This document shows, piece by piece, positions 8,564-61,171 of a DNA stretch of 64,000 nucleotides. How positions within the stretch are numbered: position 1 is the stretch's first letter; the number at the start of each line of letters is the position of its first letter. Below the pieces are notes generated by a model. That model was given only the letters and a program-made list of their open reading frames with translations, was not told the origin of the DNA and did not search any database. Origin of the DNA: Picocystis sp. L7 (Eukaryota; Chlorophyta; Picocystophyceae; Picocystales; Picocystaceae); contig QXJR01000028.1 of assembly GCA_020975725.1 (NCBI GenBank), positions 434,001 to 498,000 of the forward strand. Direction: 5' to 3'. The translations under genes and the position numbers were made by a program.

Positions 8564-8690
8564 GGTTAACTGCTCGTGGTTAATCCAAGCCCCTTCCTCC
8601 TGCCCCCTCCCGGGGCCGAGGGAGGACGCCCGAACTTAACCCTTTCGTTAACATCGTCGGTGCATCCCCGACGGGAGAGAAGAAACTCCC
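8564..8690. promoter_or_regulatory. Putative divergent promoter with GTTAAC boxes and a GGGAGTTTCTTCTC motif
   Basis: Upstream of SDA1 lie GGTTAAC (8564-8570), GGTTAAT (8578-8584), TTAACCC (8636-8642) and GTTAAC (8647-8652). An exact copy of the recurrent 14-mer follows on the minus strand at 8677-8690. The combination recurs next to other genes in this window. A promoter role is inferred from position and repetition only. Confidence 0.5.
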
Positions 8691-8722
8691 TCCAGGCCGA
8701 CGGTTCGTCGACGTACGTGGTG

Positions 8723-9265
8723 ATGTACGTTTCCATCCTCGTGGTCCGCTCCGCCATCGAAGAACGCACCCGAAGAGACGTCTTTCGAATGTCATTGGCG
8801 GGTGGAAGGTGGATGGTGCTTCCGTTCGATCCATGCGACCTCCAGGTGGTGTGTCCGCGCACTCGAACCGACGGGTGGGACAGACGGTTTCAGGGTCGGG
8901 GGTCGGACGTGGAGAACATAAACACGTCACAGGTGCAGATATGTGGCGTTCCGTCGAATGCACCAACACCCGTGGCATGTTCAGTTTCTACCTCGAATTC
9001 AGCGTATTGCAGGAGGCACTTTAGCAGAGGGCATGCAGGCCGCCTCAGATATCTGAAGGAAATGGCCCCGAACGGGCACACAACGAATGGACAAATCTTG
9101 GATAGGGAGGCCGGCACAAGCAACAAATGTCCTCAAATTGAATTCGCGAGACGGGTGGCTTCAGCAATTGAAACAGGAGAACTCCTCGATGATTGCACAA
9201 GCGCCCATCGTTCCGAGCCCCTGAGCTGTCAACGGTTCCGTCTGTGGAGAGCGTTCTTCACCTGA
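8723..9265 (+). CDS. Possible two-exon gene divergent from SDA1, unknown product
   Basis: An open frame starts at ATG 8723, 33 bases after the promoter-type motif. Its internal segment 8846-8932 begins with GTGGTG and ends in CACAG, and would make an 87-bp intron of the size seen in other genes here. Splicing gives a 151-aa protein (MYVSILVVRSAIEERTRRDV at its start). The frame stays open whether or not the segment is removed, so splicing is not required. No family is recognised. The position opposite SDA1 across a motif-bearing spacer is the main argument that the gene is real. Confidence 0.25.
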   Translation: MYVSILVVRSAIEERTRRDVFRMSLAGGRWMVLPFDPCDLQVVCPRTRTDGWDRRFQGRGSDVENINTSQVQICGVPSNAPTPVACSVSTSNSAYCRRHFSRGHAGRLRYLKEMAPNGHTTNGQILDREAGTSNKCPQIEFARRVASAIETGELLDDCTSAHRSEPLSCQRFRLWRAFFT

Positions 9266-9451
9266 CAAGTGCAGAAGCTCCTTCTGAACACAACACCAAT
9301 GAAAGAGCACCGCCCTGAATCCGATACGACTCTCTTGTATTGGCAATGCTTCGCCCCGAAACGATGCAGAGCTACTGCGTGACTGGAGTGTGCTGAAGCA
9401 GGATGAACATCGCGGTTTTGCTGCTGGGAAATTAGTTTGGTACACCTCCAT

Positions 9452-11020
9452 CTAGGTAGGGGTAGTTGAGGGATTTAGCGCAACGCGTGCGGTATCCCCT
9501 TGTTGCACTGGAGTGGAGGGGGATCCTTCGCGTCTCTGTTCGCTCCGCACCCTTCGGCTTTCATCGAAGTACTGGTTTGGGTGATTTACTCCCGTCATAC
9601 ATGCACATCCATGCACTCCTTCAAATGTTTCCTGACAAGCAAGCTGGAAGTGCTTGTTTTTCACCTTTTCTAATATACTATCAACTCTCTGAGATTCTAA
9701 GCTAAGGACCTGAAGCATTGATCTGAGGTCATCTTCACTCTTGTGCCTGTATGGGCAACCATGATGTTCGTCACTGCCAGGAGTAGACGTGATGATTTTC
9801 ATGCACGAATAGGGTGTGTAATCACGCCTGTTGCCCTCCTTCCCATAGTTGTGTCTGATGTTGTAAGCATACTTCTTTTCAAACTGATCGCCATCACACT
9901 TGGGAGCGAATTCTGCTTTCCAGAAAGCGAGAGCATCTTGAAGATTGAGGCCAATCCCTTTCAAAAACAATCCCAGCTGCATTCTGCCACCGTATTTCAG
10001 GTGATGGCTTGCTTTGAGCCTATGGTACAAGTGACTCATGCACAAGGGAAATGACTCGGCTGCCAAGCTGGGGAGATCCTGTATGGTCACCGGAGAGTCT
10101 GATCCTCCTCTTCTGACACCATTGTCATAGTCTGGTCCGAGATATCGCTTATTGAGTGACTCTACCAATGGCGCAAGCCGTTGCTGCTCCCCCGCAGAAA
10201 ACTCATCCCACTTCCTTGCTGTGAGGATGAGGCACTTGGACAGCTGTGCTCGAAAGTGTCCAACCAGCAAGGCTGTCAGTTGGCTCGCCCTCAAAAAGAC
10301 AGCACCATCCTTCACGTAGACTTTCCTCATGGCCACCAGCTCAGGCACACTCTCAAAGGGTACTTGGAAGAACTTGGATTCTTTCGAAAGTTCTTCCTTT
10401 GTTATTTTTTCACTTTGCTGTGAACGGTACACCGCAAGCAGCTTCTCCTCCAGAGCTTTGAATTGGTCTTGCCTCAATCTTCTGCAGGGAAGGTGGCACT
10501 TCTCCAGAAAGCTTACTTTCTCGTTTTCAGAGATGATACGGAACTTCTGTCTGAAGAGATCGCATTCGTGCTGGATGAACCACCTTCTCAACTCGTCAGT
10601 TTGGCAATACGCCAATCGAAGTACGAAGTGGGAGATTGTGTCCTTCCTTCTTGTTGCCTCGGATGTATCTTCTTGCATATGCTGCTTCAGAAGGGTGAAT
10701 ACAGCATCGGTGAGTTCATTTTCACGTTTTCCACTCAGTTTCGCAGCCTCTATTCCCTTGAGCACTGTTTATGGAATGACAGCATGGACGAAGGTTAGTG
10801 TTTTTCCCTGCGTTTTCTTCGCTGTCGGGCAACTTTCTACCAGGCGCAGCCAGAACTCACCTCGTAATCGGTCGATGGCCAGCTCTTCGAACTCTTCGAG
10901 TGCGATGTCCTCAAAGGGTGGATCGGAGTACATACAAGGCAAAAACTTGGAAGTTTCGTTGCCACTGTCCTTTTTCGCGATTCCACGGCCTTGATACGCG
11001 CCTTCCACTTGGAAAGCCAT
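9452..11020 (-). CDS. PRIM2: DNA primase large subunit (PRIM2), one intron
   Basis: The coding sequence joins 10861-11020 and 9452-10764 on the minus strand, giving 490 aa. The 96-bp intron starts GTGAGTTCTG and ends CATAAACAG. Splicing restores the family's N-terminal motif, LEEFEELAIDRLRVLKGIE, which neither exon alone contains. PRIM2 is the regulatory subunit of the primase that makes RNA primers for DNA polymerase alpha. The C-terminal half has the four iron-sulfur cysteines in order: LCMSHLYHRL, YSCMKI, HGCPYRH and LACQETF. It also has HHLKYGGRMQLGLFLKGIGL, the typical lead-in to that domain. Human PRIM2 is about 509 aa, so the length fits. The start is the ATG at 11018-11020; the frame stays open further upstream but shows no conservation. 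Confidence 0.93.
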
Positions 11021-12020
11021 TGTTCCCGCCCAGTGATCTCCAGGTGAACCAGGAGGATCTCTGCACGTGTCGCACTGCACCAACCCACGTGTCACGCGTA
11101 GGATCGCGGCACACGTCCAGCGGTGCTTCTGTCTGTTCCTGTCGGCCTTGGTGCGATGGAAGCGGTCGCGCTTCCCATGCACGTGTTCGGATCGTCTCAC
11201 CAGTCGCTTCCCGCCTTTTTTCGGTGTGCCAGCGATCCGATCCGATTGGAAGAAGCATTCCAATAGAAGGGACATCGGGCAGGGCCGACCCAGGATGCCT
11301 TCGGTTCAAAAGGCCAGGATTGTGAGAGGGAAACCCCTGCTGTCTACCTTCCCCGGGGCCTTGCCCCCTCACCCCCTCTTGCGTCCCTCACCCCCCCTCG
11401 CCTGCCCGTCAGGGAGGAAGATCGACCGGCCGTGCCATCGGACGACTCGGACGGAACGGAGGGGTCGCACGTCCGGAGGGCAACGGCCCGTTGCCCTCCG
11501 GACGTGCGATCTTCGCAACGGATAGAAGGGTGGGACGGTCTCTCGGGGGGCGGAGTCGCGCGAAACGAAGGCAGGAGAGCAGTTTGGGCTCGAGGAAGGG
11601 GACCGTTGCGGACAGACGTATCTGCCACCGGACGGAAGAGAGGCCTTGCCTCGAAGGACGGTGGCGATCGCGAAGGTCCGTGCGTCGTGGAAAAGAGGAA
11701 TTTACAAGGCAAGGGGAACGGCAGAGGAGGATGTGGCCTTCCGTTCAAGGCACAGCCACGCCACGGGACGAGTCCATGCGCTGGAGCAGAGTGCCCAGGC
11801 CGATCTTCTCGACCTTCATGTCTGCATCAAGGGATGCTAGAACTTCTGGTTCGGACGAGCTCTCTAAGGAAGCCGTCACGTATTCATGGAACCTCTTCAA
11901 CTTCATCCAAAACTTCCTGCGGGACGATTGAGTGGGAGGATCTTTGCGCCAACCTGGATGGTGCTCTTCAGCCTTCATGTACGAGCATTGCGCAGAGCTG
12001 TAGTTGCTGTTTGTCATTTT
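11021..12020. other. Intergenic stretch upstream of PRIM2
   Basis: No convincing gene. The first 400 bases are GC-rich flank of PRIM2. A large palindrome (11465-11509) lies in the middle. The last 100 bases join the Crypton. Open frames here are low-complexity Arg/Pro-rich readings. Confidence 0.4.
11465..11509. repeat. Perfect inverted repeat, 22-bp arms with a 1-nt centre
   Basis: The left arm (11465-11486) begins TCGCACGTCCGG. The right arm (11488-11509) is its exact reverse complement, with a single C at 11487 between them. The arms are GC-rich and would form a very stable hairpin or cruciform. It lies about 445 bases upstream of the PRIM2 start codon and inside no gene that I recognise. 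Confidence 0.9.
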
Positions 12021-13625
12021 CTACCAGAGATCGTGCAAGGAAGAAAATTGCTTGCAATTGGTGGGGGCATGAGGTGGAGGTTTGACAGCATGCGCAACCA
12101 TACGCCTTGTGCCTTCCAAAGCCTTGCCCAATGAGTTTTTCGACAACTCTGCAATCATGCTCTTGCATTCTCTGACTTCTTCGTTCAACGCCTTCAGTTT
12201 ATGATCCACGGCAACGGAATGTTGAGTAAACATGTGCATGAAGGATTGATTCAACGTGTCATGAGACCGCATGCCTCCACTTGACTGTGCCCGGACAATT
12301 TTGCTCTTGAACCTTGGCCAGTACGGGCATTTGAACACAGGATGGCCAAACACTGCGTTGGAAGAACCTTGAGTCGAACGCAACAAGGCACAATCTTGCA
12401 AGAAGACAACCCTTGCAAGTTCCAATGTTCTTAAGAAAAGCAAAGCTGCATCATCCTTCACCCCATCAGGTCAATTGACCACTGCAGCTATAGCTTCCTC
12501 CAAACTTGGAAATATTTTCCTCAATAATTCTGGGTGGGGTTGCTCTTGTTGGCATGGCATGCATACGTTGGTATAATCACTATGTCCACCTGCTGCCACC
12601 ATTGCCTTGTGGGCCACATTTGTAAAGTAATTGGTTCGAACCACAGAAGAAACTTTAGCCCCGTCACCTCCATCCAACCATTTGCCCAGCCTGGTGATGT
12701 CCTCCTCATTTATATAGGGGAGTGTCTCAAAAAACCTTGCTCCAAACTCTCTCATGTGGGTCACTTTACCCAAGTCCAGGCCCAACTCATCACTTACCTT
12801 CTTGAATGCTGCATACATTCCTCTATCCGTGACAGGATAGAACTTTGAAGCATCATACCATGCACGATTCGGAGAAAGAAAATCTGGCAATCGCTCGCCA
12901 AGGATGTCAAACCTCCAAACGAGGTATCAGCACGTAGCTCCCAAGGCACATAATTCCACATCCAAGTGACGGCAAGCCCCATGCAGTCTAAGCATGTTTC
13001 CACTGTTCTTATGCTTGGTACGAATGCGCAAGTAGGGTAGGGCATCGGGACCGCTCTCTTCATATCATGTGAAGGAAAGGCCAACAAGTGCACATTCACG
13101 CAATGAATCCCCACGCATCAATGTTTGGAAGCAAATTGAAAAGGCCATGGCATGGACAAGGGACATGGCATTCATGACCCTTTTCCTATCTTGAATGCTC
13201 ATCATCTTTGGCAAGAAGCTAGCATAGTCCTTGCTGCCGTCATGTTTCAATTCATTTCCTCGATGCCTGGCATTTTTCAGTACTCCTTTGACACGGTGGG
13301 ATCTTACCTTCAGGTGCGCTGCACGGAGTTTGTTGGTGGCTGTTACTGCAGAGAACAGCTCTTGCAGAGCGCAAACACATTGATTCAGGTGGGAAAAGGT
13401 GCGTCCATCAGCATGTTGACCATCCACGTATGCTTCCGTCATTTGAAGCAGCCAATCAAGGTCTACAATATCGGCCAATCCTCCAAATTCTTCGCTTTTG
13501 CTCATCCCATTCACGAAAACCCTCCAGTGAGGCTTGTACTTTGCCCTTGTGCTTTTCTGTTGTGACATCTTCGCCTCCCACTCTACCAGTAGTGGGTCAA
13601 GCTCCTTGCTGCCGCCCTCGTTCAT
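12021..13625 (-). mobile_element. Crypton DNA transposon, tyrosine recombinase with GCR1_C-type domain
   Basis: A single minus-strand frame of 535 codons from ATG 13625 to the stop at 12021 encodes a Crypton-type protein. The N-terminal part (STRAKYKPHWRVF, then LMRGDSLREC) is the core-binding and first catalytic region. Next come GACRHLDVELCALGA and YLVWRFD, then VTHMREFGARFFE with the HxxR box, RLGKWLDGG, and NYFTNVAHKAM with the candidate catalytic tyrosine. The C-terminal part (LFLRTLELARVVFLQDCALL, then HPVFKCPYW) is the GCR1_C/Ndc10-like DNA-binding domain. The frame is interrupted only by three TGA codons (13065-13067, 12927-12929, 12471-12473), with no frameshift. Host genes here end in TGA as well, so these are stops. 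Cryptons lack terminal inverted repeats and none is seen. Confidence 0.75.
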
Positions 13626-14734
13626 GTCGAATGTTGTTCGTGGACCATACAAACACCTTCTAAGCGGAGACTCGGAATGGCCGTGCACCCGTTCTTGTTC
13701 GAAAGGACGCACCTAGAAGGGCAACATTTGCTGGTTGCTGGTCCACGTTCGTTCTAGAATGCGACGAGTCGCTCTGCTTGCCCTCTGGCACAGTCCAACC
13801 GGAAACGGAAGCGCAAACGACGCCCTACCCACCGGCCAGGTCAACGAGGTGGCAAAGCAGTAAGACGATGCTCGGCTACGTCTTTGACCTGACGCAACCT
13901 CCCCCAACCCCGCGAGTTCTGGCGTCGATTTTGGTCCTTCCGCTGTCACGTGCCACGATGCCCTCACGCACCCGGTCGAAGTGTCGTGCACAGCAACTTC
14001 GAGCCTGTTAATCTGCCCCCGGACCCTCCGGTCTGAAAAAGATTCCACACCAGGAGGAAGAAGCAGCGAGCTTACCAATTCAAGTGTGCACACCGTCGTC
14101 CCAATCAGTATGTCGGTGCCGTTTCGTGGGGTGGAACTTGAAGCACATAGTTCCTTAGGAATGAAACATGGAGAGTACTGACCAGGATTTTTTCAAAACA
14201 GGTGTTATTTCAATGGGCATCAAGGCACTCCATGTCTTGTGAAATTAAAACATGACAGTAGAAATGCACACTTGAAGACATAAACAACTGAAGTGAAGAT
14301 TGTTTACAGTAGGACTTCCATCCATCTCCCATCGTGGCTGATGCATCAACAACACCTCTATCCATCCGCCATTTCTGCTGGCGCAACATTGGCAGAAAAC
14401 CCGAAGAATTCGGGTCGAGCCGTTCACGCAACAAGAGGCACATGCAGGATGAACCAGCGTGTCGGGTTCATGCCGAGGTTCCTTTCCTCTCCAGCTTCCT
14501 GTCGCTTTGGCCTTTGCCGACGTGCCGCTCACAGGTGGACACGCAAGCTTGCCCCATCGTGTGTCCGTTCACGACATCCAGCAGAGCCACCGTAGCATCC
14601 TCTTCGTTCGTCCCGGTGCCGTCTCATCCCCCTCCCATCAAGCAGTGCTCTTTGCGTGTGGTTTCGTCGGCGTCGGCGTGTGCCACGAGTGGTAGGGTTT
14701 GCCGGGGATGTTTACGTCGATGGAAGTATTTCCT

Positions 14735-14750
14735 GGTTTCCATGGAAACC
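14735..14750. repeat. Perfect 16-bp palindrome GGTTTCCATGGAAACC
   Basis: The sequence equals its own reverse complement. It shares the TTTCC/GGAAA half-site with the palindrome at 14791-14808, which suggests a binding site for a dimeric protein, but no adjacent gene is recognised. Confidence 0.7.
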
Positions 14751-14790
14751 GATCCACCAGGGACGTTTGAGGGAGGGGGGTGGAAACCAT

Positions 14791-18830: not shown

Positions 18831-20108
18831 CTATCGTGCAGCAAGCTTCTTCCTTGCTATTGCAGGCTCGGTGCATTCCTGTTTCACAGCGATCTTCTGA
18901 GCCTTACAATGATCTACCTCATAGCCTTGTTCCTTCAACTCAGCTACAATTCCATTGACACAGGGCAGCTTCAACCCAATCGGCAGAGGTGTCTGCGGAT
19001 TGGCCAGTGCTTGAGTGATTGCCTCTGATACAAGTTCCTCTGGCAAAGACAGAGGTGAGTTGTACGAAAGAGGGACAGTGTGGTTCTGCACTGCATCAAA
19101 TTGATAGAGAGCCTGGCCAGGAGATGCTTTTGACATGCCCTCGCACATTGGAAACCCACACATAGCATTAGTGTTCCAATGGTGCTGGTTCGTAGCGACC
19201 GGGGTTCCAATCACAGTCAATCCGCCTTGTCCCATAGAGAAGTTGCCCACCCTACCCCCCCCACTGACATTGGCAGGTAAGGGCAGTAGAGGTCGCTGGT
19301 GCACACTCCTTTCAAGGCCAGTACCTAAGGAGGACTTCCCAGAATCCAGGTCCTTCCCACCAACTGTCTGTGCTGACCCACCTGAAACAGACGTACTGCT
19401 TAATTTCTGTGGACCATCATAATCCTTTGATGCCAAGTACATCCTCAGGTAATCTGCCACGATGTGCTTGTTCAACCCTTTCGCTGCAGTTCCCATGGCC
19501 TGAAGGATCTTGACAGGATTTGCTTGAGGCCCAAGCTTTTCAACAATGTCCACAAAACGCTTGTGGCGGTCTGCGGGCCATTGGTCCCCGGAGATGACAG
19601 GGGAGGTCTCGTGCCAAGATTTCTTCGAAGGCACACTCATCAGTTTGGCCTTCTTGGCTACATGTCCTTCATCACTTTTGGCCAGTTTATTTTTAAGGTG
19701 CGCTGGGGGGTTTCTAACGACATGCTGCCACATGGTTCTGAGCCTTGAAAGAGGAAGTGGTTTGTAGAAAAAATCCACAGCCCCGAGTCTGACTGCCTTC
19801 ATCAGATACTTCGGATCGTGCCTATCTCTCGTCACAACAATGACTGGGATGCCGCAACGGTTCTCCAACAGCGTGAGTGCTGGGCATCCTTGAGCTCCAG
19901 TCCCTTCCACCAGGACGATGTGGAAGTTGGATGACGATGTCTTCAGGAGTTCAATCCCATCCCGAGCCTTCTCGCAAGCAATGACTTCGTACTTGAATTG
20001 CTTCAGTGCCCTCTGCGATTCTCCACGCTCTTCTTTGTTGCTGTCGATCAAGAGTACCTTGAGACCTTCTGGAAAGCTGGGCCACAGTTGCTTCACGGTG
20101 CCTACCAT
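18831..20108 (-). CDS. Pseudo-response regulator with GARP (Myb-like) DNA-binding domain
   Basis: A 425-aa nuclear regulator resembling plant APRR2 and B-type ARR proteins. Residues about 15-132 form a receiver fold (GLKVLLIDSN at the first strand, VIVVTRD with T93, DFFYKPL with K116). The strand that should carry the phospho-accepting aspartate reads HIVLVEGTG, so a glutamate (E68) stands at or next to that site, as in plant clock PRRs. Only one of the paired acidic residues at the first strand is clear (D22). Phospho-relay is therefore unlikely. Residues about 174-226 are the GARP motif: DQWPADRHKRFVDIVEKLG and LNKHIVADYLRMYL, corresponding to the WxxxLHxRFVxxVxxLG and SHLQKY regions. The rest is Ser/Gly-rich. 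I chose the ATG at 20106-20108. A short upstream exon cannot be excluded because the frame stays open. Confidence 0.85.
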   Translation of the reverse strand: MVGTVKQLWPSFPEGLKVLLIDSNKEERGESQRALKQFKYEVIACEKARDGIELLKTSSSNFHIVLVEGTGAQGCPALTLLENRCGIPVIVVTRDRHDPKYLMKAVRLGAVDFFYKPLPLSRLRTMWQHVVRNPPAHLKNKLAKSDEGHVAKKAKLMSVPSKKSWHETSPVISGDQWPADRHKRFVDIVEKLGPQANPVKILQAMGTAAKGLNKHIVADYLRMYLASKDYDGPQKLSSTSVSGGSAQTVGGKDLDSGKSSLGTGLERSVHQRPLLPLPANVSGGGRVGNFSMGQGGLTVIGTPVATNQHHWNTNAMCGFPMCEGMSKASPGQALYQFDAVQNHTVPLSYNSPLSLPEELVSEAITQALANPQTPLPIGLKLPCVNGIVAELKEQGYEVDHCKAQKIAVKQECTEPAIARKKLAAR

Positions 20109-23100
20109 AACGGTCCGTAGAGTAGATTCGGCACCAATCAAGGGAGGAGGTAGATCACGGCACGGTCCTGCTCGTCCTCTGGACGCCGGAGGCTATGCTG
20201 CCAGGCTCTTCCCTCCCACGGGATCGCAAACGCTCCACGCCGCACGTGTGTGCTGTGCACTTCCGTTCAGGCGGCGTCCGTCCCGCGACGACGTGGTTTC
20301 GGAGCTTCCTTGCTTCTCCCTCCGCGCCCGCGTCCTCGAGGACGCCGGTTCCTTCCACGTGCGACTGCTTCCTTCTTTCGAGACGCAGCAAGCAGAGTTT
20401 GCGATCGAATCGAAGCTCGAAGTCGCGAGCGATGGCCGATCCGTCGGCAGCGACGAACGCCTCTGCAACGAGCTTTGTCCATGGACAACGATGTCGACCC
20501 CGCGGATCTCCACCCGATCGCAAAGACCCGCAGAGGACGGACACGTGCACCGAAGAAGGAGAGGCAGGTCGAGGTCCTCTGCGGCTCCGGCGAAGAAAGC
20601 CGCGTTGGAAGGGGGAAGAACGGTCCCCCCGAAGGTCGCCCGTTGTGAAACATCTACCGCAGAGGATGGTGCTCGGGGACAATCGCGATGAGGGGGGCAC
20701 AGACACCCGTCCTCTGCGCCAACGGTGACGTGTCGGGCAGGGGCGAACCCGATGGGAGACTGTGACCACCGGGTAATCACGGAGTTTCAAAATTACCATC
20801 GAAATGGAGAACGGGAATATCGTCCACCTTTCGAACCACAAATATCGGATGGGGTTGCGGGGATCTCCTCGAAGATATGTGTTGATTTTGAACCGATATG
20901 CCGGTCGATTTCCTGGGGATTATCACCGGTAAGGGTCGTACGACGCCGAGGAGATTCTAGGTGTTTCGACGATGTCGTTATGGATCGCTCGTGGAGTTTG
21001 TAGATATTTACGGGATATGTACGAAAGCCGGTCCACCACGGTTAATTCGGACCTAAACCGTTGCCTCATCGATCGGGGATGGACGTTCGCTCGGAACGGC
21101 ACCACGTGATGGATGTGAATACGATCCGAAGATTGGCGCAAATGTTCGGCCACGGCACACGCGAACAAGCGTCAAAGAACCAAATAAGATCGGTCGTTTC
21201 AAGAAAACTGCGAGCATGCACAGTGAAACCGAGCGATTCTCAATGTAACGGAGGCGCATACATTCCCATGTAACTTTGCCTTGCATTTTCACACCCCAAG
21301 TAACAGATCATGGGTTATGGTGAAATCCTACACCTTCGGGAGTTATCATGCTGGCATTACGACCGTTCAACTCGGGCCCGACAACAACCCTCGTTTATGC
21401 TGGGGAATGAAACCAAAATCGCTTGCCCTCGCACCAATTTTCGTCCTACGCGTGTCTTCTGCAGGCAGTTTAAAAGGAAAACACGAAGTGTCTAAGCTCG
21501 TACATGGAAAGAGTTTCAACCGTTGGAAGATAATCCTCATGCACGAAGAAGCTCACGTCGAAGGAAGGCTCTACTTTTCTCAATAATAGCTTGTGCATTT
21601 ATGGTCAAGGCTGTTGACAAACAAAATACGAGACCGATCCCTTTTCCACGTCTAAAGGTGCACTTACGTGTTGTGAACGGAAGTGCGGTGGTTGTTAAGA
21701 AGTAGAACGAGTATGGAATCTTCACGATAGAACATCACCTTTAATCCCGTTGGGGTCGATCATGGAGTTGGACACTCATCATTTCTAAATCCTATTCAAC
21801 AAAAATTAAGCATGGGTATGCAACATCCCATTGGCAACATGATAGTTATTAATGAAATATCGTAGCTCTCGTAGAACTCATCACACGATCACTCTTGTAA
21901 ACTCAAAACATAAGGATGAGCAAGCCTCGGCAACGAAGCATGTGTAGAGGCCATTTATATTAGTTTAGGAAGTTGTTCCAAGTACTTTGGCTCAAATAGA
22001 AGTTGTAGAACTCTGTCGTGTAGTGCAAGCTTGGAGCGATGTGCAAGCACTTTGAATGCTCTTTGTTAGGAGGCTCTGCTAGGACATCGAGGTTACATAG
22101 ACGAATGTCGTGCACATACCATTTCATCTTTTTACCAAAGAATCAAAGTGAAAACCGATCTTCATCTCTCCCGATGAGGGGATGTTATTCCAAAGTGCAT
22201 CTACGTTAGTCGAGTAAGCAGACTTCTATTATAGGCATATGCATGTCCCTGGTGATGCGCAAGCAACTCCACTAGGAAAATGCGTGTTGTTTCCAATGGC
22301 TTACATGGTGTCTTTACTACTGATTTGAAGCGCATCAATGGTCGAACTCGTTGGAATCGGAACAAGTTCGCATACGGTTTCATCCTTCCAAACTTGCCAT
22401 AACTTTTCGGCTTGAAGGTAGATGAACGCTAACAGATGCTTTCTATTCGTTTAATATTCCTCTAAGGTACATAGTCATGACGGGGCGCGAATTGGTGAAA
22501 GTTATTGTCTCACGCAAACGAGTGATGCCTCGAATTAAACCTTCATAGATTGATCCAAAGATCATCCCAACGCTACTCAGCCTGAAGAGAATGCAAGTGG
22601 CGTTACACTTGTTTACTATCCGAGAAATGTTGGTGATTGTTGCACATTTTGCGTCGATGTTCACAAATCCTACGGGTGTGGGATGCGCTTGTGTGTGCAC
22701 CTTCACAACGAGCATCACAAACAGGCTAATGACAGTTGGTAGCTCGTTCGGTTCCACTCCATGACAATGGTCAAGTCTAGCTCATGAAGCGCCTAGACCG
22801 TGACAACGCACATGCGATTTCCTTGAGTAGTTCGTTTCGGGTCTACATGAATTGCTATTATGTGGGCCTATCCTGGCAAACTTTGAATGCTTGAGCTACA
22901 ATACGATCGCATGATGCACACCACAAAATAACCATTCGACTAAATTAAGTAGTCACACTTCTGGTATCAGAATTGCACAATCAAGATATAGTGCTTTGAA
23001 GTGGCCAACATTGGATTTTGCAACAATTAAGGCGTCGAACGAAAGTGGAGACATTTCAAGTACTTTCGAGCACCTATCATTTATTCTTGAACGATGGCAC

Positions 23101-25424: not shown

Positions 25425-25438
25425 GGGAGTTTCTTCTC
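25425..25438 (+). promoter_or_regulatory. Promoter-type motif GGGAGTTTCTTCTC
   Basis: Exact copy of the recurrent 14-mer, 60 bases upstream of the AspRS start codon. Function is inferred from its repeated association with gene starts. Confidence 0.5.
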
Positions 25439-30270: not shown

Positions 30271-30640
30271 GAATATTCGCACCCCCCTCGTCAGGGGGGG
30301 GCCCTCCTCCCTTCCCCGTCCCCAGGGGAACCCACGTGAGAATATTCGCAGGGGGGGTCCGGGAGGGATCCGAAGGGGGAGGGGAGAATATTCGCACCTC
30401 CCCTCGTCAGGGGGGGCGCCTCCTCGCTTCCCCGTCCCCAGGGGAACCCACGTGAGAATATTCGCAGGGGGGGTCCGGGAGGGATCCGAAGGGGGAGGGG
30501 AGAATATTCGCACCTCCCCTCGTCAGGGGGGGCGCCTCCTCGCTTCCCCGTCCCCAGGGGAACCCACGTGAGAATATTCGCAGGGGGGGTCCGGGAGGGA
30601 TCCGAAGGGGGAGGGGAGAATATTCGCACCTCCCTCCGCC
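30271..30640. repeat. 116-bp tandem repeat with GAATATTC and CACGTG sites
   Basis: A 116-bp unit recurs about three times between HisG and the divergent phosphatase gene. GAATATTC, a perfect palindrome, occurs at 30271, 30340, 30386, 30456, 30502, 30572 and 30618. The spacings 30340-30456-30572 and 30386-30502-30618 are exactly 116. CACGTG (the plant G-box) precedes one site in each unit at 30333, 30449 and 30565. GAATATTC fits the GNATATNC site bound by PHR1-type GARP proteins in plants. The proline-rich frames that cross the repeat are by-products of its composition. Confidence 0.85.
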
Positions 30641-35554: not shown

Positions 35555-36726
35555 CCGGTGAAGTCCGTCGGTTCGGACCCACCGATGGACGTCCCCGAGA
35601 AACGAGGGCTTCGGGGGAGGAGGGGAAGACCACGGCGCTCGAGGAGGATGAAGGACGCCGCGATGGAGGTTCACGACCATCCATCCAAACGAAAAACGGA
35701 CGGAGAAGGAGTGGAACGGCCTTGCTTGTCACGCTACGAGGAGCAGGCGAGGAACCGCCATCCATCCGTGCCCCGGCAGATGCCCTTGCCTTTGCAACCA
35801 ATGCTTCAAGATGGAACGCGATACTGGGGAGAATGCCACCCGAGGCCATATCCGAGGGATGCTGCAAGGAGATCGAAGCGTGGGGTAAGAACCCTACAGG
35901 ACGAATTCCAAGAGGAGGTGTTCGACGCACGTCTCGGATCCCTTTTTTCTCGGAGGTCGTGTAGTTCCGCGAGGTTCAATCGCATCACGATCCTCTTGAA
36001 ATCCGTTGGTTTCTCGAGCAAAAGGGGAGACATCCGGACGTCCCCTTGTGAAAAAAGTCGCGCCGACACCGGCGGCGTGCACGTGCATGTTCGAGGTCGC
36101 AACGGAATGAAGGCATCGTTCCATGGATTGCTCGATGTTTGACTCGGATCCCTCCCTTTGTTACGATTCCCTCGCATTCATGCCAACGATCGACGTTTCG
36201 AGGTGTCGAATCGAGGGTGCCTTCGATCGATGGGATCGACCGGACGACGTGGCCTCCGCCTTCCTTCGAAGACGACCGTTCGAGGCCCCACCCGGGGAGT
36301 TTTTTCTCCGAGGATCTCGGGGGGGGGGATCCCCTGCGGTTGGCTTGTGTGGGTGTGTGGGAGTGGGGGCGTGGACCTCGACTGACCTCCGATGGATCCG
36401 AGGCGACGTGGGGGGTGTGGCCCCCGAGGGGTGCAGTTGCACCCCCTTGCGGGACGGACCTCGGTCCCCAGATTCCTCCCGAGAGGGGACTGAACGGCTA
36501 GGAAGGGGTCTCCCCATCCAACGTCACCCAGCTGGCGGCTCGTCCGCCCCGGGATCCTCCCCTGTTCGCCTGTCGATTCCTTCGGGAGGGTGCATCTGCC
36601 ACCCCGCGCCACCAGTTACACCCCAGGCGGGGACGTGAGGTCGGGGCGAAGAGCTTCGCGAAGCGTCTGGGCGGGAAGCGCAGCACGCGCAGCAGGAAGG
36701 CGGCTGGCCACGATCGAGCGGACGCC
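35555..36726. other. Intergenic stretch with a possible unplaced exon and GC-rich leader
   Basis: On the plus strand, 35795-35889 reads like protein (FATNASRWNAILGRMPPEAI, then a Cys-Cys pair) and is followed by a good donor site (G-GTAAGAAC at 35884-35891). I could not find the adjoining exons. From 36290 to 36660 the sequence is GC-rich. It holds a one-mismatch copy of the promoter-type motif at 36295-36308 and an inverted repeat GGGGTGCA-gt-TGCACCCC at 36428-36445. This part is probably the 5' flank of the gene at 36727. Confidence 0.4.
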
Positions 36727-38343: not shown

Positions 38344-39532
38344 TTATAGAATTTCCACTGCTTCCACTTCAGTCACTTCACCAATGACGTGCGCACCATA
38401 CATAGAAGCTGCAGATGCCCCCTCTTTGTCAGTCACCACAACCATACCGATGCCCATGTTGAAGGTTCTGAACATCTCGGAATCCGACACTCCTCCGGCT
38501 TTTTGGAGCCATTGGAAGAGCGGAGGAATCTCCCATGACTCCTTGCGAATGCGAACACCGAGACCTTTTGGTAGAACACGTGGAATGTTGTCTGTAAAAC
38601 CACCACCAGTGATGTGTGCCATAGCTTTGACTGGGATTTTTTCTGCCATGCCCAGAACTTCATTCACGTAGATCGCAGTTGGTGCCAGCAGTGCCTCTCC
38701 TAGCATCTTATCCGTCCCTTCCAGAGGATCCCGGAGGGTTGTGCCTGATTTTTCTAAGATCTTCCTGACCAGCGAAAACCCGTTTGAGTGCACCCCCGTT
38801 GACGGCAATCCCAGGAGTATGTCGCCCGTTTGCACTTTGGAACCATCGATCAGATGGTCCTTCTTCACGAAGCCAACCGCAAAGCCACTCAAGTCGTACT
38901 CCCCATCAGGATAGAATCCGGGCATTTCAGCTGTCTCGCCACCCAACAGAACACAACCGCTGCGCTTGCAACCATCCACTATCCCTTTGACCACTTGCTC
39001 GGCCTTGTCTACATCCAGAGCTCCTGTAGCGAAGTAGTCCAGGAAGAACATGGGCTTGGCCCCGCAAGTGACGATGTCGTTGACGCTCATGGCCACCAGA
39101 TCAATGCCAATGGTGTCGTGTTTGTCCATCTCGAAGGCCAGTTTGAGCTTCGTGCCTACACCATCCGTCCCACCTACAAGGTATCCGTCGCCTGGTCGGT
39201 TGGATCGAACAGTCAGCCTTTTCGAACGATCCTTTTCGAGACCACGTCCACGACCAACGAACCGGTTGGCGGGTCCACTCACCGAAAGGATAAAGTCCGC
39301 TGAATCCACCGATTTCAGGACACATCTTCGCGATTCTTCGCACGAGTTCGCTTCCGGCGTCGATGTTCACTCCGGCATCCCGATAGGTGAGTCCAGGTTC
39401 GGCCGACGAGCCCAGGCACCGTCTCGGACCGCGACCGGCTCGTTTCACCGCCCTTCTGGCGGATCCTCCTGTGCACCGAACCGTCCTTGATCCCATCAGT
39501 GCGTCCTGGGACGACGCAAGCGAGGCAGCCAT
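38344..39532 (-). CDS. Phosphoribosylformylglycinamidine cyclo-ligase (AIR synthetase), one intron
   Basis: The coding sequence joins 39283-39532 and 38344-39191, giving 365 aa. The 91-bp intron starts GTGAGTGGAC and ends CCGACCAG. Splicing produces [20 protein letters not shown], matching plant PUR5 almost exactly, whereas the unspliced frame breaks this motif. The enzyme closes the imidazole ring in purine synthesis. Exon 1 holds [20 protein letters not shown] after a 45-residue Ala/Ser/Arg-rich extension, consistent with a chloroplast transit peptide as in plants. Exon 2 has [45 protein letters not shown] and [16 protein letters not shown]. The start is the ATG at 39530-39532. Variants of the promoter-type motif lie 75 and 270 bases upstream. 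Confidence 0.93.
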
Positions 39533-39606: not shown

Positions 39607-39815
39607 GGGAGTATATTCTCTGCCGGGCAGCGGTGGGTTCGGGTCCGTCCCATCGGTCCTTCCCCGGTTCTCCTCCCGATCGAACCCGGTATCCCTTCCC
39701 TTGGAGACCCGGATCCGACCGGGAAGGCTTCCGGTTCGTGTTCCCCAATGGAGCTGTTTCCCAGCGCAATCCTGCACCTGCAACTCCGCTCACCCCCAGT
39801 AGAGAATATTCTCCC
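39607..39815. promoter_or_regulatory. Promoter-type motif variants upstream of PurM
   Basis: GGGAGTATATTCTC at 39607-39620 and GAGAATATTCTCCC at 39802-39815 combine the outer arms of the recurrent 14-mer with the GAATATTC core of the HisG repeat. GGGTTCG/CGAACCC boxes lie between them. Function is inferred. Confidence 0.4.
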
Positions 39816-40225: not shown

Positions 40226-40239
40226 GAGAAGAAACTCCC
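40226..40239 (-). promoter_or_regulatory. Promoter-type motif GGGAGTTTCTTCTC
   Basis: Exact copy on the minus strand, ending 13 bases before the ATG at 40253 of the aminopeptidase gene. If it is a promoter or leader element, the true start may be one of the downstream ATGs (40277 or 40322). Confidence 0.5.
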
Positions 40240-40252
40240 CTGGGCTTGGTGG

Positions 40253-42419: not shown

Positions 42420-42433
42420 GGGAGTTTCTTCTC
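42420..42433 (+). promoter_or_regulatory. Promoter-type motif GGGAGTTTCTTCTC between divergent genes
   Basis: Exact copy, extended to CTCCC so the outer five bases form an inverted repeat. It lies 66 bases upstream of the AN1 gene start and 266 upstream of the glucosidase start. Several GGGTTCG/CGAACCC boxes lie between it and the glucosidase ATG. Confidence 0.5.
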
Positions 42434-47700: not shown

Positions 47701-47805
47701 GGGAGTTTCTTCTCTTCTCTTTCGGGAGTTGCTTCTCCCCTCTTTCGGGAGTTTCTTCTTCCCTCTTTCGGGAGTTGGTTCTCTACTCTTTGGGAGTTTC
47801 TTCTC
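47701..47805 (+). repeat. Five-copy array of the promoter-type motif, about 23-bp period
   Basis: Copies start at 47701, 47724, 47747, 47770 and 47792. The first and last are exact GGGAGTTTCTTCTC; the others differ at one or two bases. Spacings are 23, 23, 23 and 22 bases, about two helical turns, so all copies would face the same side of the DNA. The array lies 287 bases upstream of the small gene at 47414 and 850 upstream of the DEAD-box gene. Confidence 0.8.
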
Positions 47806-48215: not shown

Positions 48216-48370
48216 CTTGGGTGTGAGGGCCAGTGTCCGAGTGTGAGGGTGTGGGTGTGAGTGGGACTGTCCGAGTGTGAGGGTGTGAGGGTGTGAGTGC
48301 CACTGTCCGAGTGTGTGGGTGTGAGGGCGACTGTCCGAGTGTGTGGGTGTGAGGGGTGTGAGGGGTGTGG
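48216..48370. repeat. GT-rich minisatellite
   Basis: Imperfect units containing TGTCCGAGTGTG start at 48234, 48268, 48304 and 48332, separated by GGGTGTGAG stretches. It lies in the 5' flank of the DEAD-box gene and looks like an ordinary short tandem repeat. Confidence 0.75.
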
Positions 48371-55784: not shown

Positions 55785-58700
55785 CTAGTGACCCTGCAGT
55801 TCTTGTTCTTCCAACATCTTCAAATGCTCCCTGTATGCAGCCGCAGCCTTCGCAGGGTCTATAAGGTGGGAAACCAAGGGTTCTTCTACCTCATGGGCTT
55901 TGTCCTCCTGTGTGTTACCTGACATCTCCTTTTTAGCAGTATCCTGAGCCTGTTTCTCCCATATCTTTTCCTCATGAGCCAACGCTACATCTGCTGTGAT
56001 TATTCTTTGTTTTGCATAATGCTCCTCGAAGAATCTGATGGCGTACCTCTCTACAGGCAAAAGTTCTTCCTCCCACGAGGCACCTAGAGCTACTGCACGT
56101 TCTACTTTTTCCTGGAAGAGATTCTCCTGCTCTCCGCCGTTGTTCGCTTCCTCCCCTGCATCTTGATGGACCAGATCTCCCTTTGGATGGTCCCTATGGC
56201 CGTCTCCACCCTCGGTTTCATTCTCTTCCTGCAAAGGTACCTCACCTTGGAACTCCGCCAGCTCTTGTTCTGCCTCCTTCTTGGCCGCTTCTGTAGCAGC
56301 AACATCCGCCTCATCCTCAACCTGCTTCAGCACATCGTTCACGTTGTCCTCTTGATCTATCTCCCCAGCTTTGCAGGAAGGTTTTCCGTCAAAAATGTCA
56401 ACCAAATTGCTTTTCTTGAAAAATTCGGTGTTGAAATCGCCAGATTGTATTGCAAGAAAGTCAAGTTCCTGCTTCTGTTTGGACTTTCGCAAAATGTTCT
56501 CTTCAATTGTCCCATGCGAAACAAGACGATATATGTGAACAACCTTTGTTTGCCCAATACGATGGGCCCGATCCTGTGCCTGGGCATCCATTGCTGGGTT
56601 CCAGTCACTGTCGTAAAATATGACAGTGTCTGCACCAGTAAGATTCATTCCCAATCCTCCACTGCGAGTGCTCAAGATAAAGCAAAAAATCTTCGGATTG
56701 GAGTTGAACCTCTGCATCAGTATTTGGCGCTGTTCTGGCTTTGTGGTACCATCCAACCTGAGATAGGTGTAACCATATAGATTGAGAAAAGACTCAAGCA
56801 CATCTAGCATTTTTGACATCTGTGTAAAAATCAGGCACCTGTGCCCGTCCGCTCTTAGACGGCGCAGCAGAAGTGCAAGCTCTTGCAGCTTTCCACAATC
56901 AAACTGTATCAAGCGACGATCTGGAAAGAAAAGCTGGTGATGCACGATAGCTTTACGTAGCGGAGCAAGTAGAGGTCCAACTTCAGCCAGCAGCAGTGCC
57001 TCTTGCACTTGTTGGATTGCTTGCTTCTTTTGATACCCCTTTGAACACCATACCTTCGGAGCTTTGGCCCTTGCTTTAGGAATTACAAAGCAGCATTCCG
57101 ACAAGGTTTTGTCCATTTGGAGCGATCTCTCTGGAAACGAAAGCAACATTTTTGCAAGAATACGAGAGTGTTCAAACAACTTTCTAGGGTCTATTTTAGC
57201 TTGCTGAACAGAATCTACCAACGTTGGACAAGATAAAACATCCACATCACACCAGACATTTAGCGCTCTGCATGAACTTCTCACTTGGACCTGCTCCACA
57301 ATAGAGTTCCAAACATCCGTTTTTGCTGCATAAACCCTTCTTTTTAGAAAGTCTGAAATGGCGTTCAACAAATTGTGTGAATTAGCTGAGAGATGACTGC
57401 TCAACGAGGGTCCACATCTTGAAGAATCGAAGTTAGACATAGCCGGTACTATGGATATTGGTCCAGATTGCATTGACGTGAATGTCTGCAACTCGGGAGC
57501 TGAACCTCTTCCCGTCAGAAAGTTCCACGGACTGCATGCACCAGACAATGAAGGCATTACATCGACTACCAGTGAAGGCATCTGCAATTCAATACGCTCC
57601 ATGTCAAAAGCTGAAACAATCGGCCGACTTTCAAAAAGGTCTGGATGGTTGCAAACCTTGCGTAGTTGCATAAGACAATTCATTATTCCCATAAGATTTC
57701 CACTGCCAAGTACCTTCTGAGTATTACTGCTGGACATGTAGTCTTCATACAGTTCCCTTTGTCTCTTACTCAATCGGCAGTAAAGTATATGCTCTTCCTT
57801 TGGTGGTAGGCTTTTCTCTACATCCCTCTTTATTCGTCTGAGTAGGAAAGGCCGCAATACTTTATGCAATCGCTGTACAATCTGCGTGTTGACTGATGAC
57901 TGGCCTTCCACCATACCTGTAAGTGGCATCGAAAACCATTCACTGAATTGCTCATACGAACTAAACACATGAGGCATCAGAAAATGCAAAAGGGCCCACA
58001 ACTCCATGAGGTCATTTTGCAAAGGTGTACCAGTAAGCAATAACCTGTACTTTGCATCGAAGTTCAAAAGTGCTTGCCAACGTTGACTTCTCCAGTTTTT
58101 TATCATGTGAGCTTCGTCTAGAATCAGGTACTTCCACTTTTTTCTACCAAGAATTTTGATGTCTTTGAGGATAAGGGTGTAAGTAGTGATACAAACATGG
58201 AAGCTGTTTGGTTTGGACCAACCCTGCCTTTTGAGCTTCCTCTCCTTTGCGGTGCCAAAGTAAGTAAGTACCTTAAATGCCGGGCAGAATTTGAAGAATT
58301 CCATTTCCCAGTTTAACATAACAGATGTAGGGACTACAATCAGATGTGGACCCCATATTCCTTTCTCAATAGCCAAGTGCGCTAACAGCGCGATAGTTTG
58401 AATGGTTTTACCGAGGCCCATCTCATCTGCAAGAATTCCATTGAGTTTCTTCTCATGCAGAGACACTAGCCAGTCTAGACCTATGTGCTGATATTCACGT
58501 AGTGGATATTTCATAAGAAATGGGACTTTGGTCTTGATTTGGGTTTGCTGTGGTGCATCACTACCAAGTTCTGCTACTTTGACCCTATCGCTCTTTTCCT
58601 TTTGGTTCTCTCTTTCCTGCTTTTCAGCAGGTGCTGCATTTTCTTTCATGCCCAAGCTAGCGTGCGAGGTGTTCATTTCTACATCTCTGACTCCAGACCA

Positions 58701-60965
58701 AAGACCTCCATTACTGGCAGTTTCAGCTTGCCTTCTTGTGATTATTTGCCTGCTGCTCTCTCTTCCTGGTCTAGTGTGCTCCTTGGAAGAGGGTAGAAGA
58801 ATTGACTCAGGCATGTGGTATTGCCGTAACAATTCTGTGACTGACAAGGAAGCCTCGGCTTGAAGCGCACCGATTTCGTCTACTGGACCCTCCTGTGTTT
58901 CTGCCAAAGCCAGCCTCTCTTCTTCTTCAAGTGTAGATTCATCATCCTCACCATCACTTGTGAGCATGTAATCATGATCTTCATTGATATCTTCAGCAAC
59001 ATCATGCTTGCACATGAGCAGGGCATAATCTTGCTGCGCTTGCTGAATGGGTTTTGAAGCATCCTCACCACAAGACACATCCGTCAATACTCGAGCACGT
59101 TCTTCACTCCTATCAGAAACACCCCGTGCTTCTGCATGTCTTCTGTGCTCCTGTGCATTGCTCCTAGTACTGTGCTCGTGGTTATCTCTTTTTGATGGAC
59201 TTGGTTGACGATAAGATGCGAGCAGTGCTTCTATAGGCATATTAGCTTCATCTTGAAGGCTGTGAATTTCCTCGTCGGGTCTTGAACCCCCTTCCATTCG
59301 GACCATTCTCTCTTCTTCTTCTAGAGTTGCCTCATTATCTTCATCACTTCCCGACAGGATGTAAGAATCATCGTCTCCTTCCTCGCTGAACTCTTGCGAA
59401 TCGCCGCCTTCAGTAGAGGAAGATGAATTCTCTTCAATAGACTGCAGGATATTAGGGTGCCTACTTGCATGCACTGCTGTTGCTGAACCCCCATTGAACA
59501 ACTGAGATCGGTGTTTCTCAGGCTGATGTTGAAGTTTGGAAGGGCCTGCTCCATTCGACAGACCCACCTTGCCCTTGATACCTTCACAACCTATAGAACC
59601 AGGACGCTGCCTTTCTTCCAAAAGTAAGTGGGCATGCGTTTCAGCAAGACGCCCTGTCTCTCTTTCCTCTGGCAGGGCCACCTGTTTCTGCTCTGATGAA
59701 CTTGAGCGAACAAACTCTTCCTTTGCTGTGAAGATCTGCTCTTTGTGCTCTGCAGGCTGGGTGGGTTTGGGCTTCGAAGTGTTCCCACCATTCTCTTGCT
59801 GTGCTTGCATGGCCATGTAAACTTGCAGGAGGCTATCCAGTGAAATATCTTGTTCCTGTTGGAGCATTTCCAATTCCCTGGCTTCTTGCCTTTCCCTATC
59901 CCCTTCAAGGGCGGCTCTCTTTTCCTCCTCCAAAAACGTATCCATATCATCTATTTCCTCGTCCAAATCTGCAATGTATTCGTCGTCGTCTGACATACTG
60001 TCTTCGTCTGTTTCTGAGTCCAGAGCCTGCCAACCTGCTGCCTCAGCATGAGTGGTTCTGCCGGGTGGGCCTGCTGCCTCGTACAACTGCAAACCTTCGC
60101 TGGGGATTTTTTCTTGCCCATCCCCATCCATGGCTGCCTCAGATCTATCCCCTTGCTTCCAATCTGTCTCATGGGGATCTTCATTCTGAGGTATTTTCAA
60201 TTCCACTGCACCACCAATTTCCTGAACATGCGTTGGATGGGCCTTCACATTTCCCACAGCGACCTGTCTCTTTGCCTTTTCAGATTGGTAATCTGGTTTG
60301 GCTTTGAAGATCTCTTCTGCCTTTACATCTTCTTTCTCTCCCGCCACCATGCGCTCGGCCATGTCCCTCGTGTACGTCTCGGTTTGTCCCAGGAGTGCTT
60401 CGAGTCGCACATACAGTGCTTTTTTCTTTTGTTGTTCATAGGAGACCTGGTGTTTGAATAGCACCAGCTTTTCCACTTGAATCCAGAACTTGGACACTTG
60501 CTTGGCAATCCATGCGGCTGTCTTTTTCCTTTCCAATTCCGCTTCTTTTTTTCTTTTCAGCTTCCTAGATTCGACGTCCAAGTTGGAGCGCACGATGGCT
60601 TTGGACCACTTCTTCGCCTGTGCTAGTTTCCATTTTCTCTCTTTGTTGACGTCTTTGGCGAGCCACTGCATCTCTTCCAGCATGTAATCCCAGTGGCATT
60701 TCTCTCTCTTCGGTTCTGGCCCTCTGGGAAGCGGTTTGATGTCTCTCCATCTCTCTTTCCTGGACTCTTGTATTTCGTCGGCCAGCTCCAACACCTCTTC
60801 TTCCTTCAGGTACCTTTCCCAATCCACCGGGTCCATCTCCGAGCCTCCCTTTCCGTCCACCTTCCTCCTCTTTCGTTCCTGTCCAGGTTGCTCCATCGAT
60901 CCCGCCTCCGACTGCAACGCGAACGAGCACCGCTTGGTGCGCTCCTCCGCCATGGCGTCGGCCAT
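55785..60965 (-). CDS. PIE1: SWR1/PIE1/SRCAP-type chromatin remodelling ATPase
   Basis: A 1726-aa INO80-family Snf2 ATPase, the catalytic subunit of the complex that exchanges H2A for H2A.Z. An HSA domain near residues 75-190 (CHWDYMLEEMQWLAKDVNKE and RKWKLAQAKKWSK) binds actin-related proteins. A long acidic region follows, with three repeated segments: DSETDEDSMSDDDEYIADLD, GDDDSYILSGSDEDNEATLE and DHDYMLTSDGEDDESTLEEE. These match the acidic repeats of plant PIE1. The first ATPase lobe has DEMGLGKTIQT (about 847) and LILDEAHMIKN (about 950). A large insertion of over 300 residues, the family hallmark, separates it from the second lobe (CLIFTQMSKMLDVLESFLNL, about 1380; AQDRAHRIGQTK, about 1468). 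No SANT domain is seen, unlike Arabidopsis PIE1. The start is the ATG at 60963-60965; the upstream frame is motif-bearing promoter DNA. It has no introns. Confidence 0.93.
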   Translation of the reverse strand: MADAMAEERTKRCSFALQSEAGSMEQPGQERKRRKVDGKGGSEMDPVDWERYLKEEEVLELADEIQESRKERWRDIKPLPRGPEPKREKCHWDYMLEEMQWLAKDVNKERKWKLAQAKKWSKAIVRSNLDVESRKLKRKKEAELERKKTAAWIAKQVSKFWIQVEKLVLFKHQVSYEQQKKKALYVRLEALLGQTETYTRDMAERMVAGEKEDVKAEEIFKAKPDYQSEKAKRQVAVGNVKAHPTHVQEIGGAVELKIPQNEDPHETDWKQGDRSEAAMDGDGQEKIPSEGLQLYEAAGPPGRTTHAEAAGWQALDSETDEDSMSDDDEYIADLDEEIDDMDTFLEEEKRAALEGDRERQEARELEMLQQEQDISLDSLLQVYMAMQAQQENGGNTSKPKPTQPAEHKEQIFTAKEEFVRSSSSEQKQVALPEERETGRLAETHAHLLLEERQRPGSIGCEGIKGKVGLSNGAGPSKLQHQPEKHRSQLFNGGSATAVHASRHPNILQSIEENSSSSTEGGDSQEFSEEGDDDSYILSGSDEDNEATLEEEERMVRMEGGSRPDEEIHSLQDEANMPIEALLASYRQPSPSKRDNHEHSTRSNAQEHRRHAEARGVSDRSEERARVLTDVSCGEDASKPIQQAQQDYALLMCKHDVAEDINEDHDYMLTSDGEDDESTLEEEERLALAETQEGPVDEIGALQAEASLSVTELLRQYHMPESILLPSSKEHTRPGRESSRQIITRRQAETASNGGLWSGVRDVEMNTSHASLGMKENAAPAEKQERENQKEKSDRVKVAELGSDAPQQTQIKTKVPFLMKYPLREYQHIGLDWLVSLHEKKLNGILADEMGLGKTIQTIALLAHLAIEKGIWGPHLIVVPTSVMLNWEMEFFKFCPAFKVLTYFGTAKERKLKRQGWSKPNSFHVCITTYTLILKDIKILGRKKWKYLILDEAHMIKNWRSQRWQALLNFDAKYRLLLTGTPLQNDLMELWALLHFLMPHVFSSYEQFSEWFSMPLTGMVEGQSSVNTQIVQRLHKVLRPFLLRRIKRDVEKSLPPKEEHILYCRLSKRQRELYEDYMSSSNTQKVLGSGNLMGIMNCLMQLRKVCNHPDLFESRPIVSAFDMERIELQMPSLVVDVMPSLSGACSPWNFLTGRGSAPELQTFTSMQSGPISIVPAMSNFDSSRCGPSLSSHLSANSHNLLNAISDFLKRRVYAAKTDVWNSIVEQVQVRSSCRALNVWCDVDVLSCPTLVDSVQQAKIDPRKLFEHSRILAKMLLSFPERSLQMDKTLSECCFVIPKARAKAPKVWCSKGYQKKQAIQQVQEALLLAEVGPLLAPLRKAIVHHQLFFPDRRLIQFDCGKLQELALLLRRLRADGHRCLIFTQMSKMLDVLESFLNLYGYTYLRLDGTTKPEQRQILMQRFNSNPKIFCFILSTRSGGLGMNLTGADTVIFYDSDWNPAMDAQAQDRAHRIGQTKVVHIYRLVSHGTIEENILRKSKQKQELDFLAIQSGDFNTEFFKKSNLVDIFDGKPSCKAGEIDQEDNVNDVLKQVEDEADVAATEAAKKEAEQELAEFQGEVPLQEENETEGGDGHRDHPKGDLVHQDAGEEANNGGEQENLFQEKVERAVALGASWEEELLPVERYAIRFFEEHYAKQRIITADVALAHEEKIWEKQAQDTAKKEMSGNTQEDKAHEVEEPLVSHLIDPAKAAAAYREHLKMLEEQELQGH

Positions 60966-60968
60966 CGA

Positions 60969-60985
60969 GTTAACCCGAACGTTAA
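60969..60985. promoter_or_regulatory. GTTAACC and GTTAAT boxes adjacent to the remodeller start codon
   Basis: GTTAACC at 60969-60975 and GTTAAT at 60981 lie within 20 bases of the ATG, similar in kind to boxes upstream of SDA1, PRP16 and the gene at 51127. Confidence 0.4.
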
Positions 60986-61049
60986 TTCGGACCGTGAGAG
61001 GTGGGGGGGGGGAGGGGACGAAGGGGAATGACGCATCCCTCCCCCACGA

Positions 61050-61171
61050 GGGAGTTTCTTCTCCCCCATCGGAGGGGAGGGAGTTTCTTCTCCGAAGCGG
61101 TGGGGGAGAGGGGAGTTTCTTCTCCCCCATCGGAGGGGAGGGAGTTTCTTCTCCGAAGCGGTGGGGGGGAG
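61050..61171. repeat. Two 61-bp units carrying four promoter-type motifs between divergent genes
   Basis: Exact GGGAGTTTCTTCTC copies start at 61050, 61079, 61111 and 61140. They alternate between the forms followed by CCCCATCGG and by CGAAGCGG, so a 61-bp unit with two motifs is duplicated. The array starts 85 bases upstream of the remodeller start codon and ends 54 bases before the PIG-U start codon, so it probably serves as a bidirectional promoter. Confidence 0.85.

Follow-up and report, generated by a model that had tools for sequence, protein, structure and literature searches.

Which DNA words start transcription is, to our knowledge, little understood for most algae and protists. In the 64,000 nucleotides of the Picocystis sp. 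L7 genome analyzed here (hereafter the window), one 14-bp word, GGGAGTTTCTTCTC, returns at locus after locus, which raises the question of whether it is a signal of the genes beside it, a repeat that merely settled there, or an accident of base composition. We address this by asking how often the word occurs, where it lies relative to predicted genes, in which orientation, and how much of its surroundings is shared between copies.

A recurrent 14-bp word and its consensus

Matches to GGGAGTTTCTTCTC with at most two mismatches number 17 in the 64-kb window (10 exact, 4 with one mismatch, and 3 with two), where 100 dinucleotide-preserving shuffles give an expectation of 0.68 and a maximum of 4. 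The exact copies form six separate loci, two of them arrays. When words of at least five copies were ordered by the number of separate places they occupy, with simple words filtered out, sub-words of the 14-mer headed the lists at k = 10, 11, and 12. An initial annotation of this DNA had listed 10 exact and 6 near copies in excess of chance; all of its coordinates proved correct on rescanning, and the shuffles bear out the excess. Its statement that the exact copies are noncoding is true under the accepted gene models, with the qualification that for 25425 and 42420 this status is a choice of start codon, because in-frame 5′ extensions of open frames cover both. One match, at 58441 (TTGAGTTTCTTCTC), lies within the SWR1-like coding frame; it is probably due to chance and was dropped from the locus counts.

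The element is better written GGGAG-N4-TTCTC (GGGAGNNNNTTCTC), with TTTC as its usual centre and GAGTTTCTTCTC as its main form. This strict pattern has 16 sites at nine loci, against 0.37 expected from 60 random sequences with the dinucleotide composition of the window, and it adds a site absent from the initial annotation, 39802 on the minus strand; 47747 falls outside the strict 16 because its last bases are CTT. We built a profile, weighted by locus, from 17 sites at the nine loci, 47747 included. It carries at least 1.19 bits at 13 of the 14 positions and 0.48 bits at the ninth, and the best flanking columns reach 0.71 and 0.60 bits. Nine of the 14 positions, those of GGGAG and TTCT, are invariant in the 17 sites, and apart from the last base of 47747 all variation is confined to the middle four bases, seen as TTTC, TTTA, TTTT, TATA, AATA, TTGC, and TTGG. 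With this profile, no site that went into building it scores below 17.9, and the best match outside the set scores 15.2. The word, its bounds, and its excess are direct observations.

The copies, and the repeat that carries a variant of them, are arranged as follows.

3030 to 3043, minus strand: near copy GGGAGTTTATTCTC, some 240 bp beyond the SNARE gene's stop codon; the sole locus not upstream of a predicted start
8677 to 8690, minus strand: exact copy, sense to the SDA1-like gene (minus strand) and 153 bp upstream of its start at 8524
25425 to 25438, plus strand: exact copy, antisense to the AspRS-like gene (minus strand) and 60 bp upstream of its start, taken as 25365
26982, plus strand: start of the HAT/TPR gene, 1557 bp from the 25425 copy
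30271 to 30634, no strand assigned: 116-bp tandem repeat between HisG (minus strand) and the NIF-type phosphatase (plus strand), with three copies of GTGAGAATATTCGC and no strict copy
30382, 30498, and 30614, plus strand: three copies of the variant GGGAGAATATTCGC in that repeat, one base off the strict pattern
36295 to 36308, plus strand: near copy GGGAGTTTTTTCTC, between the DEAH helicase gene (minus strand, 35425) and orf36727 (plus strand)
39607 to 39620, plus strand: near copy GGGAGTATATTCTC, antisense to the PurM-like gene (minus strand) and 75 bp upstream of its start at 39532
39802 to 39815, minus strand: copy GGGAGAATATTCTC, sense to the PurM-like gene and 270 bp upstream of its start; contains the palindrome GAGAATATTCTC
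40226 to 40239, minus strand: exact copy, antisense to the methionine aminopeptidase-like gene (plus strand), with the copy end 14 to 83 bp upstream
42420 to 42433, plus strand: exact copy, between the AN1 zinc-finger gene (minus strand, 42354) and the glucosidase II alpha-like gene (plus strand, 42699); forms the middle of a longer, imperfect inverted repeat
47701 to 47805, plus strand: tandem array of five copies in steps of 22 to 23 bp; 47701 and 47792 exact, 47724, 47747, and 47770 variants
61050 to 61153, plus strand: array of four exact copies (61050, 61079, 61111, and 61140), including a 61-bp duplication, between the SWR1-like gene (minus strand, 60965) and PIG-U (plus strand, 61207)

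The range given for 40226 reflects three possible starts of the methionine aminopeptidase-like gene (40253, 40277, or 40322), the first exon of which was placed by eye. Between the 36295 copy and the DEAH helicase start lie 870 bp, and between it and orf36727, which has no Pfam domain, 432 bp. The 47701 array stands 287 to 391 bp upstream of gene 47414 (minus strand); its distance to the DEAD-box helicase gene (plus strand, 48655), which it also precedes, exceeds 800 bp. A minisatellite of the GTGTGAGG type also occupies 48219 to 48369, upstream of the latter gene. The variants at 30271 to 30634 were kept out of the nine loci; the 116-bp units of this HisG/NIF gap carry palindromic GAATATTC sites.

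Gene starts and divergent gene pairs

Open frames and Pfam domains yielded 21 predicted gene starts, of which 17 are Pfam-backed. Not among the 17 are the primase large subunit (first exon unplaced), orf51127, orf36727, and gene 47414, whose match above the cut-off extends over no more than a short stretch of a polyketide-synthase dehydratase model and is not trusted; some genes of the window contain introns, which were read by eye. Eight of the nine loci, all from one 64-kb window, lie at most 450 bp upstream of one of the 21 starts, a zone that makes up 25.6% of the noncoding DNA (p = 0.00013 against noncoding DNA; this and the following position p values are guides, because starts and cut-offs were set after the sites were seen). 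The earlier claim that most copies lie upstream of start codons agrees with the exact loci, all six of which have a copy no more than 300 bp upstream of a predicted start among the 21; the second exact copy in the 47701 array is 378 bp from its start. When starts are restricted to the 17 backed by Pfam, the 450-bp zone takes in six of the nine loci (p = 0.0033) and the 300-bp zone five of the six exact loci (p = 0.00046), the fall to 6 of 9 arising because orf36727 and gene 47414 have no trusted domain. Three gene-poor stretches, which were picked by eye after the sites were known and make up 13.8 of the 29.0 kb of noncoding DNA, are free of all nine loci; the gene-poor stretch 1 to 3280, which holds 3030, was not one of those picked. 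The near copy at 3030 does not mark a gene start as had been supposed, as no gene start is visible downstream of it. The genes served were described earlier as unrelated housekeeping genes, and it is to their 5′ flanks that this noncoding element is tied.

The strict pattern is present in six of seven head-to-head intergenic regions (AspRS/HAT, DEAH helicase/orf36727, PurM/methionine aminopeptidase, AN1/glucosidase II alpha, 47414/DEAD-box helicase, and SWR1/PIG-U), as against one of seven other 5′ flanks, in some of which unseen genes may be hidden (one-sided Fisher p = 0.015). Those compared were the flanks of SNARE, SDA1, the primase large subunit, the response regulator, the SNIP1-like FHA protein, orf51127, and TBC, with SDA1 the sole one to carry the strict pattern; together they span 12.9 kb, versus 6.1 kb for the head-to-head regions. 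The seventh head-to-head region, HisG/NIF phosphatase, has only the one-base variant TTCGC, and the count becomes seven of seven if this is admitted; it becomes four of five when the pairs resting on orf36727 and gene 47414 are removed. Head-to-head regions hold 14 of the 16 strict sites, 8677 and 3030 being the remaining two, and three of these regions have their copy at a long distance from one of the two genes (1557 bp from HAT, 870 bp from DEAH, and more than 800 bp from DEAD-box). The element is therefore, as the initial annotation had it, often found between divergent genes, whereas the word "general" in that annotation claims too much: 6 of 14 five-prime regions are without the pattern in either its strict or its relaxed version, and HisG/NIF contains the relaxed form only. 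The 14-bp element is promoter-linked, with a marked tie to divergent gene pairs; both its 5′-flank position and its divergent link were observed directly.

Several other features of the window came to our attention. GTTAAC, a possible second promoter word, has seven copies (4456, 8565, 8647, 23525, 35545, 51270, and 60969), and a count by region places five in 5′ flanks (350 bp) and one outside, an enrichment that is not firm because its p value of 6.6e-05 is uncorrected for about two thousand hexamers. Copies of TTAACCC lie some 57 to 121 bp upstream of the DEAH helicase start and also near the SDA1 and SWR1 starts. TTCGGAC occurs in four 5′ flanks (35572, 40189, 42588, and 60986), which is little above its expected flank share because it has 19 places in the window. 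The open frame at 13065 to 13712 looks by eye like a tyrosine-recombinase (Crypton-like) fragment; it has no match in Pfam or PHROGs.

Orientation, flanks, and competing explanations

Mixed orientation and arrays were also observed directly. Relative to the nearest start, the copies at 8677, 36295, and 39802 are sense, those at 25425, 39607, 40226, and 42420 and in the 47701 array are antisense, and the 61050 array lies between two starts. Copies occur singly or as arrays of four to five; the start codon is between 14 and about 430 bp away, distances that refer to predicted start codons and not to transcription starts. Core-promoter elements are oriented and fixed in place. The core-promoter role suggested earlier is thus not one we can retain, and the element does not behave like the TATA, Inr, or DPE type, because its orientation is mixed, its distance variable, and its copies sometimes arrayed. 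On the sequence evidence, an orientation-indifferent transcription-factor site of bidirectional promoters explains it better than a mobile element, a core-promoter element fixed in place, or an RNA hairpin.

The GGGAG...CTCCC arms ascribed to many copies shrink on inspection, with CTCCC following immediately at only 4 of the 17 sites (42420, 47724, 61050, and 61111). Folding of 11 windows around copies gave z values from −3.38 (61050) to +1.07 (40226). Only one of the 11 falls below −2, so there is no general hairpin; two are positive (40226 and 47677, the latter at +0.11), and the remaining windows lie between −1.57 and −0.07.

We also compared the flanks of 63 site pairs on both sides (126 comparisons) with those of about 3,900 random promoter pairs. 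Seven of the 126 reach p < 0.01, where about 1 is expected, and two of the seven merely contain neighbouring motif copies. The strongest joins 40226 (minus strand) and 47792 (plus strand), whose 3′ flanks can be aligned from the motif edge over 42 columns with 32 identities and one 3-bp gap, at a score of 34 against a null maximum of 24. The other four matches are short, with scores of 21 to 27, the best of them (40226/61140, at 27, above the null maximum) running over purines. Neither the profile nor the flank comparison found a unit common to most loci beyond the 14 positions. One promoter module has probably been copied between 40226 and 47792, and because these two share a longer flank, part of the family may stem from the copying of DNA and not from the selection of sites.

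These observations bear unequally on the alternatives. Could the long, strict word be an insulator or architectural site, at which a putative multi-zinc-finger protein would separate divergent genes and activate neither? Its mixed orientation and its presence in six of seven head-to-head regions would suit such a role, but SDA1, a gene with a non-divergent neighbour, also has a copy 153 bp upstream, and another lies 60 bp from AspRS, with the divergent neighbour starting 1557 bp away; we regard this explanation as unlikely. About as unlikely is a dispersed short repeat, its copies spread by duplication or surviving as relics of a small mobile element with a preference for open promoter DNA. 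The shared flanks of 40226 with 47792 and with 61140 are what it would predict, as is local duplication at three arrays, but most loci are alike in little besides the 14 positions, few flank comparisons are significant, and the 13.8 kb of gene-poor DNA has no locus.

The remaining alternatives fare worse. The pyrimidine run TTTCTTCTC might be a core-promoter pyrimidine patch of plant type, and the pyrimidine half of the element does resemble CTTCTC and TTCTTC, hexamers that the Y-patch passages of PMC1832190 give for Arabidopsis. The same passages describe the Y patch as made of C and T for the most part and as direction-sensitive, whereas the orientation of the element is mixed (PMC1832190). 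The HisG and the response regulator of the window look plant-like, but GGGAG, the purine block, is no less strict than the pyrimidine half and occurs in 17 of 17 profile sites (which were picked by likeness to the word), and we consider a Y patch very improbable. HisG is closest to PDB 6czl, which we take to be a Medicago protein, and the response regulator at 18831 to 20141 is like ARR1 (E = 1e-16), with a second domain weakly like LUX (E = 0.005); these similarities make a photosynthetic, perhaps green-lineage, source likely. At the RNA level, a hairpin in 5′ leaders would draw on the GGGAG/CTCCC pairing open to the strands at 42420 and 61050 and on the 9 of 11 windows that fold slightly better than their own shuffle mean, but the scarcity of low z values and of immediate arms, together with the many copies antisense to the nearest gene, makes it harder still to credit. 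Least plausible of all is a chance product of minisatellites and purine/pyrimidine-rich promoter DNA: CCTCCC-like words are plentiful in the 5′ flanks of the window, and tandem arrays account for two of the nine loci in addition to the HisG/NIF variants, but the exact 14-mer occupies six separate loci and the shuffles (n = 100) never approach the observed count.

A putative binding site and its relation to known elements

We favor the explanation that the element is a protein binding site in the 5′ flanks of housekeeping genes that serves head-to-head genes in both directions, at a probability of roughly 0.6; both the binding and the two-way activation we infer from the position and form of the word. 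A sequence-specific DNA-binding protein would occupy GGGAG-N4-TTCTC, contacting the outer blocks GGGAG and TTCTC and tolerating a changed middle. The binder could be a dimer or a multi-zinc-finger protein, either of which could read two blocks. Once bound, it would work in either direction, by attracting the transcription machinery or by making chromatin accessible, and one site or cluster could therefore serve both genes. Two observations sit uneasily with this scheme: nine invariant positions out of 14 are strict for a single transcription factor, and the 3030 copy does not fit.

A sequence text search of open-licence papers found no description of the 14-mer as a regulatory element, in keeping with the earlier statement that no described element has this sequence. 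Among the papers that this search found, a single one contained the exact 14-mer, inside qPCR primers for strawberry mild yellow edge virus, which are unrelated. In collections of viral and genome contigs, a two-copy pattern had no matches in either, and a 17-base form had five single matches in viral contigs, a number similar to that expected by chance on a rough guess of collection size. A query limited to close relatives of the DEAH helicase confirmed none among seven pattern matches in viral contigs and four in genome contigs. Such absences say little, because the collections are of viruses and prokaryotes.

The heat-shock element reads nGAAnnTTCn, in alternating nGAAn and nTTCn units, and GAAnnTTC is found inside the variants GAGAATATTCTC and GAGAATATTCGC. 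We rejected it as a candidate: the main form of the element is without the GAA half, and GAATATTC occurs only at 39804 and in 30271 to 30634. Plant REG-type elements such as TGGGCC are, in the sections of PMC1832190 devoted to them, orientation-indifferent hexamers and octamers of the −20 to −400 zone of many promoters. The element shares with the REG type, so described, a promoter-proximal place in 5′ flanks and both orientations, and differs from those hexamers and octamers in its 14 bp, its tolerant centre, and its link to divergent pairs.

The kind of element is familiar. ZNF143 and BANP at animal bidirectional housekeeping promoters, and M1BP at Motif 1 in Drosophila, are DNA-binding proteins each with a long, strong word of its own in housekeeping promoters that are often divergent. 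The element resembles these words in length, strength, and setting, and differs in its sequence, its lineage, and a binder that is only putative. It is conceivable, though we hold the idea tentatively and think it rather doubtful, that a lineage-specific master housekeeping factor, unlike known plant and algal factors, uses this near-palindromic 14-bp word as a genome-wide bidirectional-promoter signal, as ZNF143, BANP, or M1BP do in animals. A 14-bp word at nearly every divergent promoter of the window would offer a direct handle on its factor, and would be a sign that another lineage, too, has long, strong bidirectional-promoter words like those of animals.
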